A DNA stretch of 64,000 nucleotides from Planctomycetota bacterium (lineage in GTDB: Bacteria > Planctomycetota > UBA1135 > GCA-002686595), in assembly GCA_016220085.1 (NCBI GenBank), contig JACRIN010000019.1, positions 1 to 64,000 on the forward strand. The letters run 5' to 3'. Under the pieces are notes generated by a model. The model saw only the letters and a program-made list of their open reading frames with translations. It was not told the DNA's origin and made no database searches. The first letter of the stretch is position 1. Every line of letters starts with the position of its first letter. The position numbers were made by a program, and so were the translations under genes. This document shows, one piece after another, positions 43,525-51,390 of this stretch.

Positions 43525-44580
43525 ATGCTGCGTCGCTTCGTCCTAGTCGTCCTCGCGCTGGCGTGTTTCGCCGCGCCGTCGCTCGCCGCGGCGCAGGACG
43601 TGAAGCCCGACAAGCTCGCCTACGACGCCGCGCAAGCCCAGAAGAAGCGCGGCGAGCACCGCGACGCCGCCGGAGCGTTCGAGGCGCTCGCGCTGACGTT
43701 CCCCGACTCTCCGCTCGCGCCGAATTCGCTCGTCGAGGCAGGCGTGTGCTGGTTCACCGTCGGGCGCGACGCGCTCGAGCTCCACCGCGTGACGCCGAAA
43801 GCGCGCGAAGCGTTCGACGCCGCGCTCGGCGTCTTCGATCGCGTCACCAAGCAATGGCCGAAGTCCGGCGTCGCGTCGCGCGCCCAGTACATGCGCGGCT
43901 CGACGCGGCTCTTCGCGGGCGAGCTCGAGCTCGCCGAAGCCGCGTACGAGGGCGTGCTGACCAACTTCTCCGCCGACCCGAACTACCTCGCGAAAGCGCT
44001 CGAGCGGCGCGGCTTCGTGCGACGGCAACTGATGGAGAACGCCGCGGCGGTCGTCGACCTGAAGGCGTACCTGGAGCGCTATCCGAAGGGCGAGTCGGCG
44101 GCCGCGGTGCAGCAGTACCTCGAGCTCTCCGCGCTGCTCGACAAGCCCGCGCCGACTTGGACCGCGGAGGCTTGGATCCAGGGCGAGCCGACGCCGCTCG
44201 AGCTCTGCGGCGGACGCGTCGTCGCACTCTACTTCTTCGCTTCCTGGTGCCCGAACTGCGCGAAGGAGCTGCCGTTCATGCTCGACCTGGAGAAGCGCTT
44301 CACGCCCCGCGGCGTCGCGTTCGTCGGCGCGATGGACCAGAGCCGCGGGCAGACGGTGGCGTCGCTCGCGACGTACCTGCGCGAGAAGAAGCTCGGATTC
44401 CCGGTGCTCCAGCACGCGGGCGCGGTGTCGACCGGCTACGGGCTGCCCTCGATCCCGCATTTGGTGCTGATCGATCGCGCCGGTCGCGTGCGGTGGCGCG
44501 ACAACCCCGCGAACCTGGCGGATTGGACCCTGGAGAAACTGCTCGCCGAGGATGGGCACGAGGTCCTCGAGGGAAAGTGA
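43525..44580 (+). CDS. TlpA-like thioredoxin-fold protein with N-terminal TPR-like repeats, signal peptide
   Basis: VALYFFASWCPNCAKELPFMLDLEKRF...GLPSIPHLVLIDRAGRVRWRDN; helical repeats with Ala/Tyr periodicity upstream. Confidence 0.87.
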   Translation: MLRRFVLVVLALACFAAPSLAAAQDVKPDKLAYDAAQAQKKRGEHRDAAGAFEALALTFPDSPLAPNSLVEAGVCWFTVGRDALELHRVTPKAREAFDAALGVFDRVTKQWPKSGVASRAQYMRGSTRLFAGELELAEAAYEGVLTNFSADPNYLAKALERRGFVRRQLMENAAAVVDLKAYLERYPKGESAAAVQQYLELSALLDKPAPTWTAEAWIQGEPTPLELCGGRVVALYFFASWCPNCAKELPFMLDLEKRFTPRGVAFVGAMDQSRGQTVASLATYLREKKLGFPVLQHAGAVSTGYGLPSIPHLVLIDRAGRVRWRDNPANLADWTLEKLLAEDGHEVLEGK

Positions 44581-44643: not shown

Positions 44644-47085
44644 ATGGACCACCCGCCGGAGGACCTGCCGTCCGAGCCGCTCGTCGAAGAGGTCGCGTTC
44701 GTGCGCGCGCTCGCGCGTGAGCTGATCCACGACGAGCACGACGCCGAGGACCTCGCGCAGGACGCGTTGCTCGCCGGGCTTTCCAACGCGCCGTCGGAAC
44801 GCGCGGCGTTGCGACCGTGGCTCGCGCGCGTCGTCCGCAACGCGTCGATCGATCAGCGCCGTCGGAGCGCGACGCGCGCGCACGTCGAACGAGTTTCGGC
44901 GCGCGCCGAGGGCTTGCCGTCGGCTGCGGAGCAACTCGAGCACGAGACGGCGCGGCGCGCGTTGCACGCGGCGCTGCACGCGCTCGACGAACCGTATCGC
45001 ACCGCGCTGCGTCTGCGTTTCCTGGAGGAGCTCGCGCCGCGCGAGATCGCGCGCACTCTCGGCGTGCCGGTCGAAACGGCGCGCACGCGGATCAAGCGCG
45101 GGCTCGAGCGGCTGCGCGCCGAGCTCGATCGACGCTCGAACGGTCGCGCGGCCTGGGGCGTCGCGCTCGCCGGTTGGCTCGCCTCCGTGGAGAACGCGGC
45201 CGCTCGGAATCGGCTCGTCGCGCGCGGTGCGCTCGGCGCGACGGCGGCGGTGTTGGTCGGGCTCTGGCTCTTCGTGCCGAGGCTCGAGCAGCGCGCAGCC
45301 GGCGTCGCCGCTGAACGCGCGGACGCAGCGAGCCCCACGCGTGACCTCGCGGCGGTCGAAGACGCCGCCGAACGTCGCACGGTGGTGCCCGCGGGCGGCG
45401 AGCGCGCGGCCGGTCGTTCCACTTCCGGCGGGGCAGCGTCCGGCGGCGCCGCGATCGGTCGCGTGCGCTTCGCCGACGGCCAAGCGGCCGCGTTCGCGGA
45501 CCTCTTGGTCTGGCCGGGCGACGACGCGCGCGTCGTCGACGGACGCTTCGTCGGCACCGCGTTGCACGGCCGCGCCGACGTGCACGGGAACTTCGAGCTC
45601 GGCGGCTTGCCCGCGGAGTTCGTGCTCTTCGCGCACGTCGCGTCCGCGGCCTCGCCGAGCTGCGTCGTCGTGCGCGCCGCGAACGTCAAGCGCTACGCCG
45701 AGCTCGAGCTCGAGCTCGTCGAGCTCGCCGTGCTCACCGGCAGCCTGCACGACGACGCGGGCCGACCGCTCGACTCGGTCGAGCTCGAGTTGCGACCCGC
45801 GCCGACCCGCATCGGCCCCCATCCGACCGGACGGCGCGATTCCGCGCGCGTGCCTGCGCTCGCGTTCGCGACCCGCACCGATGCCGCCGGCGGCTTCGAG
45901 TTCCCGTGGCTCGTGCCCGGCCGCTATCGCGTGCATGTCGACGGACGCGCGCTCGGATCCGAGCTCGGCGTGAGCTCCGGCGCGCAGCTCGTGCACCTCG
46001 TCGAGCGCGCCGAAGCGACTCCGCACGCGCGCGCGGTCGCGTGGGAGATCGCGGGTCGCGTCGTCGACGCCGACGATGGCGCCGAGGTCTCGGAGTTCGA
46101 TGCGTGCGTGCTCGACGCGTCGGGTTCGAGCTGCGAAGCGTCGCGCGACGGCGCGTTCCGACTCCACGGGCAAGCGACCGCCGATGCGTGGCTCTGGCTC
46201 GGTTCGGCGAGTCGCGCGCACGAGCTCGTGCGGCTCGACGCCGCGGTCGGGCGCACGGAGCCGTTCGAGCTCGCGCGCGAAGCCTCGCTCGCGCTGCGCA
46301 TCGTCGATGGGGACGGCGCGCCGCTCGCGCACGCGCAGGTCGCGTTCGAGGAGCTCGACGGACGCCCGCGCATCGTGCCGGTCGGCGGACGGCGTTGGGC
46401 CGACGTCGCGCGCACCGACGCTCGAGGTCGCGTCGACGCGCTCGCGCTGCCGAGACGAGCGCTGCGGATCGCCGTCGCGCGGCCGAACGAGAGCGTCGCC
46501 GAGTTCTTCGTCGTCGATCTCGCCGACGGATTCGTCGGTGAACGCACGGTGGAGCTCGCGAGCGCCGCCACGCGCGTCGAGTACGAGCTCGAGCTCGACT
46601 TCGCGCCCATCGAGGTCGGCGCGCTGTCGACGCTCGCGCCGGGCGATGGCGGCGCGACGCGGACGAGCGCGTGGGGCCATGGAGGCGCGCCGCGGACGCT
46701 CGCGCCGGGCGACAGCAGCGCGATGCCGACGATCTCGCCCGGCGACGGCGCCACGACGTCGACGGTTTCATTGGTCGCACTCGACGCGAACGGCGAGCCG
46801 TGCGCACGCGCGTTGCGCTGCTTCGCCGACGGCTCCGGCCGCGCGCGCGAGCCGTTCGGACGCCGCGAGCTCTCGCTCGCCGCCGACGGCCGGCCCGAAG
46901 CGCTCGTCGACATCGCTCCGGGGATCCTCGACGAAGCCGCCCCCGCGCCAGGTCGCACGCTCGCGCTCTTCCCGCGGCGCGCGGTGCGAGTCGAGGTCCG
47001 CGACGAACGCGGCGTGCTCCACGAGCTCGACCTACCGCGTCCGACCGACGGCCGCCGCGTGCGCGTCGGCGGCGCGCCGCGCTGA
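44644..47085 (+). CDS. ECF sigma factor fused to a TM helix and a large C-terminal region with carboxypeptidase-regulatory-like segments
   Basis: Sigma region 2 (FVRALARELIHDEHDAEDLAQDALLAGL...LRPWLARVVRNASIDQRRR) and region 4 (LDEPYRTALRLRFLEELAPREIARTLGVPVETARTRIKRGLERLRAEL), then TM GALGATAAVLVGLWLFV, then beta-rich segments such as DAAGGFEFPWLVPGRYRVHVDG. Confidence 0.85.
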   Translation: MDHPPEDLPSEPLVEEVAFVRALARELIHDEHDAEDLAQDALLAGLSNAPSERAALRPWLARVVRNASIDQRRRSATRAHVERVSARAEGLPSAAEQLEHETARRALHAALHALDEPYRTALRLRFLEELAPREIARTLGVPVETARTRIKRGLERLRAELDRRSNGRAAWGVALAGWLASVENAAARNRLVARGALGATAAVLVGLWLFVPRLEQRAAGVAAERADAASPTRDLAAVEDAAERRTVVPAGGERAAGRSTSGGAASGGAAIGRVRFADGQAAAFADLLVWPGDDARVVDGRFVGTALHGRADVHGNFELGGLPAEFVLFAHVASAASPSCVVVRAANVKRYAELELELVELAVLTGSLHDDAGRPLDSVELELRPAPTRIGPHPTGRRDSARVPALAFATRTDAAGGFEFPWLVPGRYRVHVDGRALGSELGVSSGAQLVHLVERAEATPHARAVAWEIAGRVVDADDGAEVSEFDACVLDASGSSCEASRDGAFRLHGQATADAWLWLGSASRAHELVRLDAAVGRTEPFELAREASLALRIVDGDGAPLAHAQVAFEELDGRPRIVPVGGRRWADVARTDARGRVDALALPRRALRIAVARPNESVAEFFVVDLADGFVGERTVELASAATRVEYELELDFAPIEVGALSTLAPGDGGATRTSAWGHGGAPRTLAPGDSSAMPTISPGDGATTSTVSLVALDANGEPCARALRCFADGSGRAREPFGRRELSLAADGRPEALVDIAPGILDEAAPAPGRTLALFPRRAVRVEVRDERGVLHELDLPRPTDGRRVRVGGAPR
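46633..46764 (+). repeat. 33-bp in-frame tandem repeat (11-residue LAPGDGGATRT), 4 units
   Basis: LAPGDGGATRT/SAWGHGGAPRT/LAPGDSSAMPT/ISPGDGATTST. Confidence 0.85.
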
Positions 47086-49673: not shown

Positions 49674-50447
49674 TCACGCGACCTTCTCGAACTCCACCCT
49701 GGTCGCGTCGGATGAAATCGGTTGGTATCGCTCCGTAGCGAACGGCGCGAAATCTGGAACCGCATCGGCGGTCAATTCGCAGATGAGGCGGACCTCCACG
49801 GGAAACGGCGCCGGATTGACCAACGCCACGGAGACGCGCACCTCGCCTTCGATCAGACGCCGGACGTCCTCGTTCAGATACCTGGGGATGTACCCAACCA
49901 CAGCCTTGTCTTCCGTTCGAAGCGCGATCGCCAGCGGGTCGTGCTCGTTCTGAAGGTCGAGCATGCACCACAGTCGGTCGCCGCTCCGAAGTTGGCGGAT
50001 CGCATCCTCCGCGGCAGCGACGAATCGGATCCCGCGAACGGGGAATGTGTATCGCCACTGCTGACGCACTCGGTCCAACGCCGGTGGAGAAAAAACTTCG
50101 AACGAGTCCGTGAGTCTCGTCCCTCCGCTGCGGGCGAGGATCTCCAAGGGCTGTGCGCCCGGTTCCAGTCCGAGGCTTTCAACGTACCGCGCATACTCCT
50201 GACGCGACGCCGGCATGAGCCGGTTGGCGAGCATCGGATGCAGTTCGTGGGATCGATACACGGCATCGATCGATGCCATTCCGTGGAAGGGGTGGAATCC
50301 CCGCGCCAGTGCATCGCGAACACCCTGGATGTAGCCGAACTCGTACCGAGGGCGCGAGCCCAACTCCACGATCCGAGCGATCGGGAAGTAGCCGGCGTGC
50401 AGCGGTTCCTGCCAAGTCATGTACAGGAGGTTCGTGGCCGTCGTCAT
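49674..50447 (-). CDS. HIRAN-domain protein
   Basis: VRGIRFVAAAEDAIRQLRSGDRLWCMLDLQNEHDPLAIALRTEDKAVVGYIPRYLNEDVRRLIEG; starts in an ATGA overlap with the kinase stop. Confidence 0.75.
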   Translation of the reverse strand: MTTATNLLYMTWQEPLHAGYFPIARIVELGSRPRYEFGYIQGVRDALARGFHPFHGMASIDAVYRSHELHPMLANRLMPASRQEYARYVESLGLEPGAQPLEILARSGGTRLTDSFEVFSPPALDRVRQQWRYTFPVRGIRFVAAAEDAIRQLRSGDRLWCMLDLQNEHDPLAIALRTEDKAVVGYIPRYLNEDVRRLIEGEVRVSVALVNPAPFPVEVRLICELTADAVPDFAPFATERYQPISSDATRVEFEKVA

Positions 50448-51390
50448 CGGGTGAGTCGCGTGAGCAGCCGCTCGTAGGACACGCCCAGCATAGCCTTCGC
50501 GAACTCCTTGCAGGTATCCGTCATGCGATCGCCCGGCATCCCATCGACGGTGGCAAGGAACTCGGCGAGAGGTACGGACGCAAGCGCGGAAAGCCAACCA
50601 CCGCGCGCGCGCGGATAGAGGTCCCCGGCACGGTCGAACGCATCGAGCGGGCGCAGGCGCTCTCGATCGACATCGGACGAGTAGAACGCACCTTTCGCGC
50701 GTTCAACAAAGCGTTCGACGCGGTAGCCGTGGTCGTTCGACGCGAGCCTCGCGGCGCGTTCGGCGTCGCCAAGGCCGAAGGCAAACGACGACGCGTGGTC
50801 GAATGTTGGCGCCAGTCGCAGCATGCGCTGGCCACCTGGCGCGCGACTCTCCAAGACGCCCCAGTTCTCGTGGTGCCGGTCGAGGTTGGTCACGAGCGCG
50901 TCGAGCATGACGTACCCCAGGTACACGTCTGCGGCCGTTTCGATGTCCCCCTCGGCATGAAATCGGTAGGCGGTAGCATCTCCACGCCGCTGAGGGTCCG
51001 AAAGACACGCTCGATGGTGTGTCCGCCGACCCGGATTCCGGAGCGCCCTGGATAGCCCGGGTCCGCTTCGACGAGGAGTGCATTGCCCAGAATCAACTCC
51101 CCCGCCCGACGCGCGTGCGTGAAATCGCGTGAGATCACTCCGGGCGCGCCACAGTGCACCGCGAGCTCGACCTCAGCATGGGGAATCCCGAGAAGCGCGG
51201 CGACTCGCGCTACGAGTGCCTCGGCCCAGTCGTCCCCGGTCGTGGGACGGTAGCGGTACTTGAACAGCCAGTACCCGTCTTCCGCATCGGTACCTGGCTC
51301 TCGCAACCAGACCTTGCGCTTTGTGCCAAGGGTCTCGCCGCGTTCCGCAACCCAGCTAGAGACGTCACGTCCGGATTCCAACTCAGCCAC
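50444..51390 (-). pseudogene. HipA-like kinase, interrupted by an apparent frameshift near 50941-50965
   Basis: Frame 1: MAELESGRDVSSWVAERGETLGTKRKVWLREPGTDAEDGYWLFKYRY...GDDWAEALVARVAALLGIPHAEVELA...DFMP; frame 2 continues EGDIETAADVYLGYVMLDALVTNLDRHHENWGVL...FDHASSFAFGLG. Confidence 0.75.

Follow-up and report, generated by a model that had tools for sequence, protein, structure and literature searches.

The window analysed here, a 64,000-nucleotide stretch of contig JACRIN010000019.1 from a member of the Planctomycetota, contains at 44644..47085 (+ strand, as are all parts of the gene given below) one intact gene of 813 codons with an ATG start and a TGA stop, correctly placed in coordinates, strand and frame by the initial annotation. 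Its 813-aa product is predicted to be a membrane-tethered ECF sigma factor. Sigma-70 region 2 occupies residues 18-76 (44695..44871; Pfam PF04542, Sigma70_r2, 3.5e-11) and region 4 residues 104-157 (44953..45114; PF08281, Sigma70_r4_2, 7.2e-12), so that both lie within residues 18-157, in agreement with the earlier claim that they fill the first ~170. The domain content is that of an ECF (group 4) sigma factor, with sigma2 and sigma4 present and without sigma3 or sigma1.1 (TIGR02937, 1.7e-21). The nearest solved structures are the ECF sigma factors SigE, SigW and SigH, with coverage limited to residues 19-162.

Region 4 is followed by the motif NGRAAWGVALAGWL (residues 166-179; 45139..45180), recognised by family conservation, and by a single predicted transmembrane helix (residues ~191-212; 45214..45279), assigned from hydrophobicity and family comparison. 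An Ala/Ser-rich, fast-evolving juxtamembrane linker (residues 213-268; 45280..45447) leads into a beta-rich, putatively extracytoplasmic region (residues 269-813; 45448..47082), supported by Pfam matches and by dN/dS against the orthologue in the relative G002. The carboxypeptidase-regulatory-like segments noted earlier correspond to two Pfam CarboxypepD_reg stretches, one a transthyretin-like domain at residues 364-438 (45733..45957; PF13620, 1.2e-10) and the other weaker. The initial annotation had also given the outside part ~550 residues, near the ~600 that follow the helix, and had reported a Pro/Gly repeat; such a stretch is present at residues 660-700 (46621..46743), but it is a short, imperfect Pro/Gly/Asp/Ala repeat of LAPGDGG type, indel-rich and near-neutral, and reads as a linker. 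AlphaFold on two sequences returned a mean pLDDT of 33.7 and the model was discarded.

A frameshift or second start dividing the protein in two is ruled out by the position-specific GC content (0.81/0.56/0.88), which is uniform over the sigma, transmembrane and ectodomain parts, junction included, and thus indicates a single frame throughout, free of internal gene boundaries. An antisense ORF of 1045 aa was rejected as a gene because its codon-position pattern is the mirror image expected opposite a coding strand rich in GC. Upstream, at 43525..44580 (+), lies a gene encoding TPR and TlpA/AhpC-like thioredoxin domains that ends 63 bp before the sigma gene and is a possible operon mate; in a comparison of 20 tethered loci it was no recurrent partner of the family.

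The helix, LVARGALGATAAVLVGLWLFVP, has a Kyte-Doolittle maximum of 1.75 and is favourable on the octanol scale, and composition shuffles reach the same score in 8% of trials. The transmembrane segment claimed earlier is therefore moderate in the single protein, yet firm because the family shares it. A helix just after sigma4 is found in 20 of the 69 sigma-region-2 matches in the genome and in none of the remaining 49. These 20 tethered proteins are all long or ended by a contig edge, except the one on C61, where the frame ends after 352 aa; away from the helix, a score of 1.6 is reached in just 9 of 169 stretches taken from these proteins. In a set of 72 members drawn from this genome, its relatives and the wider phylum, and representing many planctomycete families, 70 score at least 1.6 within 110 residues after sigma4, and the helix normally lies 20-62 residues past it. 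In L142, one of these 70, the peak falls in the post-sigma4 motif instead, and L143 and L154 score 1.51-1.56. Acidic residues are concentrated C-terminal of the helix (21 D/E before versus 112 after, over the 72 members) and basic residues are about equal (83 versus 88 K/R), which predicts an N-in/C-out topology, the same orientation as in RseA and IutY. As read from the sequence, the architecture is thus an intact sigma head in the cytoplasm, a single helix and outside-facing beta domains in one polypeptide.

Proteins of this type number ~20 in this planctomycete genome and are spread over much of the phylum. Eighteen of the 20 belong to a single sigma clade and reach profile scores of at least 172, against at most 80 for ordinary sigma factors, and two more heads fall in this clade, C98, which is cut by its contig, and C7:57371, a helix-less protein of 225 aa. 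The latter (L023:8961-9635, -) lies near a tethered paralogue, C7:55180, and a similar pair occurs in G001 to G003. The two tethered proteins outside the main clade, C108:78295 and C61:30959, have distant sigma heads. C108:78295 (L106:2418-6017, +) likewise carries a helix and CarboxypepD_reg domains behind its other-clade head, so this type of ectodomain either became fused to sigma on more than one occasion or was swapped. CarboxypepD_reg follows the helix in every protein scanned, ten paralogues and ten members belonging to other families of the phylum, one of the latter just under the curated cut-off. On C19, a DUF6596-bearing (ECF42-like) sigma gene (L024:8172-9590, -) lies directly upstream of the tethered gene C19:108780, on the same strand.

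The helix-checked members come from 29 genomes beyond the one studied here; six candidates were scored per genome in this survey, and per-genome counts are therefore lower bounds. In a FastTree phylogeny of the sigma domain, built on ~160 columns, the 18 own-genome members are spread over 14 separate clades among the homologues of other genomes. This scatter opposes a recent duplication and suggests that the repertoire is old and diversified. The only matches in a single-protein scan of genome contigs were a sister MAG and an actinobacterial sigma factor of generic type.

The family is further marked by the motif that follows sigma4, with a consensus of about G-G-D-R-x-A-W-x-x-A-L-x-P-L. In members the order of segments is sigma4, this W motif, a variable loop, often M-x-T-K-x-K, and the helix. 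The tryptophan is present in the aligned column of 87% of the 72 members, and a looser pattern of W followed by a hydrophobic pair is found in 61 of the 72 against 2 of 39 ordinary sigma factors of this genome. The motif is retained in the helix-less C7:57371, which simple tethering leaves unexplained; the sigma head could be its direct target.

Two congeners, G001 and G002, show synteny with the interval 38.5-49.4 kb; G002 corresponds to Planctomycetota bacterium SJ175, the nearest named relative, with which it shares an identical sequence. The G001 orthologue is an intact 792-aa fusion. The G002 orthologue is broken near codon 137, in region 4, with one side joined to a tyrosine integrase gene, through either an inserted mobile element or an assembly break (L080:5800-7240, L075:4724; the integrase has an Arm-DNA-binding domain). 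Identity to the G002 orthologue falls from 86% in the sigma part to 60% in the Ala/Ser linker. Against the same orthologue, the sigma part has a dN/dS of 0.33 and the ectodomain domains 0.16-0.43, compared with 0.57 for linker and helix together, 0.65 for the Ala/Ser linker and 1.28, with indels, for the Pro/Gly repeat. Low values in sigma and in the ectodomain domains, in the same frame, argue that both parts are maintained, and these substitution rates indicate purifying selection on sigma and on most of the ectodomain. Farther along the window, 49677-50926 (-) contains two genes, one with a HIRAN domain (49680-50447) and a short one of HipA_C-like type (50450-50926), which lie between the genes for a beta-helix protein and an isocitrate/isopropylmalate dehydrogenase; G001 and G002 both lack this ~2 kb at the syntenic place.

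Searches for anti-sigma elements gave negative results at each level covered. With only ~30 residues between sigma4 and the membrane, there is no room for the anti-sigma domain that known fused ECFs (ECF48/52/53, IutY) contain. Pfam found no zf-HC2 in the 813-aa protein (E<1) or in ten paralogues (E<0.01), and FecR is absent from this protein and from the whole genome. As had been noted from the sequence, no anti-sigma gene adjoins 44644-47085, and the 20 tethered genes all lack a neighbour of a recognised anti-sigma type (zf-HC2, RskA_C, FecR). Among the 49 ordinary sigma genes, six lie within 1 kb of a zf-HC2 or RskA_C gene, a contrast in the expected direction that is not significant alone.

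The only neighbours to recur over the 20 tethered loci are secreted proteins that have a C-terminal domain in common, found within 5 kb of 5/20 tethered and 4/49 ordinary sigma genes, with 17% expected at random; with 104 copies genome-wide and no clear enrichment near tethered genes, they were rejected as partners. This domain of ~140 aa (CTxKxNSxGC...GGTLC...YWSRDP) closes ~100 secreted-looking proteins (for example L028:6097-9008, -), which suggests a surface or sorting module, and the product of the neighbouring beta-helix gene in the window has a C-terminal module resembling it. The ECF-type promoter AAC-N15-17-CGT was found upstream of none of 22 family genes and of 6 of 97 neighbours. 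The hexamer ATTCCG occurs within 150 bp upstream of 7/22 family genes against 4/97 neighbours (~0.06 after correction). Site-2 proteases of family PF02163 are encoded at three loci in the genome; matches in 14 of 14 control genomes show them to be near universal, and their presence is weak evidence for release.

The reading that we prefer, at a little better than an even chance, is a one-piece transmembrane signalling switch in which sigma is held by its own helix and freed by proteolysis on signal. The ECF head would lie in the cytoplasm, ~30 residues from an N-in/C-out helix, with the CarboxypepD_reg domains beyond the inner membrane. In the resting state, the helix would keep sigma at the membrane and tethering would itself be inhibitory. 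We infer that the ectodomain is an envelope sensor, on which a ligand, a surface structure or envelope damage would act, and this may expose the Ala/Ser linker to a first protease, with residues 213-268 a possible place of first-site cleavage. A site-2 protease would then cut the helix and the freed sigma domain would engage RNA polymerase. Release by regulated proteolysis is probable, with IutY as a characterised precedent (PMC8999054). With ~20 such switches per genome, one kind of cytoplasmic output head would be coupled to diversified ectodomains. The broader claim, that Planctomycetota possess a large transmembrane sigma class in which the anchor itself is the off-switch, providing ~20 one-gene channels from the outside to promoters in each cell, is tentative and falls somewhat short of an even chance.

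Regulators of the ToxR type act while membrane-anchored. An anchored sigma could similarly recruit RNA polymerase in the manner of ToxR or CadC, its ectodomain tuning activity by conformation or clustering, with no cleavage. The lack of an anti-sigma domain blocking the head, the closeness of sigma4 to the membrane and the W motif, which persists in C7:57371 and so may act on the head, are all in favour of such an arrangement; however, a sigma factor has to accompany core polymerase to many promoters and normally dissociates once transcription has been initiated, and no membrane-bound active ECF was found in the literature searched. We regard activity from the membrane as unlikely, though deserving serious consideration. 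Control could also lie with an unlinked anti-sigma factor or kinase encoded elsewhere, the ectodomain mainly positioning the protein at the envelope. Most of the 49 ordinary sigma factors likewise have no recognised anti-sigma neighbour, so that regulators may be unlinked or unrecognised, and Ser/Thr kinases are abundant in planctomycetes (PMC11032199). Given that no neighbour gene recurs in the 20 loci and that direct fusion makes a second regulator unnecessary, an unlinked partner is a rather improbable explanation.

It is very doubtful that the head is transcriptionally dead and the protein an envelope adhesin or scaffold that merely kept the domain. The ectodomain does make up most of the protein, and many CarboxypepD_reg frames in the genome have no sigma head, but sigma2 and sigma4 agree well with Pfam and with solved ECF structures, the family shows no variation at key residues and sigma evolves at the constrained rate given above. 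High GC yields long open frames on both strands and the single helix score is only moderate, as would be expected if assembly or translation had joined two genes or if the helix were a chance hydrophobic stretch; with the same fusion in ~20 paralogues, at the syntenic place in G001 and G002 and in another 29 genomes from the phylum, an artefact is scarcely credible. Transmembrane sigma factors made as one polypeptide offer a minimal route from an outside signal to a promoter. As tethered sigma factors are nearly a third of the genome's sigma matches, they may form a main system of envelope sensing in these uncultured planctomycetes; as portable sensors that need a single gene, they are also attractive. 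No description of a fusion between sigma and CarboxypepD_reg was found in the literature searched, a body that lies outside the main ECF and planctomycete classification papers.

Comparison with the extended ECF groups, suggested by the initial annotation and made here by their published descriptions, finds the helix and outside region shared and the anti-sigma domain missing. ECF52 proteins, such as SCO4117 of Streptomyces coelicolor, consist of sigma, a zinc-finger anti-sigma domain, a helix, a low-complexity linker and an outside domain (PMC5826349), and ECF48 and ECF53 are described likewise, with the zinc-finger domain between sigma4 and the helix (PMC8999054). Proteolytic release has been proposed for these actinobacterial groups (PMC5826349, PMC8999054). 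The planctomycete protein resembles them in that a single chain carries an ECF head, a helix, a low-complexity linker and a large extracytoplasmic domain, and differs in its phylum of origin and in the absence of the zinc-finger domain. ECF52 has a carbohydrate-binding module where CarboxypepD_reg repeats are found here, and SCO4117 is the sole ECF52 of S. coelicolor, in contrast to ~20 tethered sigma factors in this genome.

IutY (ECF243) of Pseudomonas putida, a FecI-FecR fusion cut by Prc and RseP (PMC8999054), also joins sigma to a single N-in helix and a periplasmic part, but it has an anti-sigma portion and a cell-surface signalling system, whereas no FecR domain is present here. The long C-terminal extension recalls ECF57, where WD40-rich extensions are prevalent, though not universal, and two conserved Cys link sigma2 and sigma4 (PMC8999054); WD40-bearing ECFs have been described as a planctomycete innovation (PMC8567305, PMC8999054). 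In contrast, WD40 is absent from the 813-aa protein, ten paralogues and ten distant members, and Cys is absent from the sigma domain of this protein and of 59 of the 72 members. The expected topology and release logic are those of RseA and RsiW with sigma-E and sigma-W, except that sigma and anchor here form one polypeptide and the anchor has no anti-sigma domain. The layout is thus like that of fused ECFs but lacks the defining feature of ECF48/52/53 and ECF243, and this absence sets the family apart from the catalogued extended ECFs as published descriptions present them, with earlier cataloguing possible. Known fused examples retain the anti-sigma domain; in a family that dispenses with it, if this is true, either anchoring alone can control sigma or sigma can work from the membrane.
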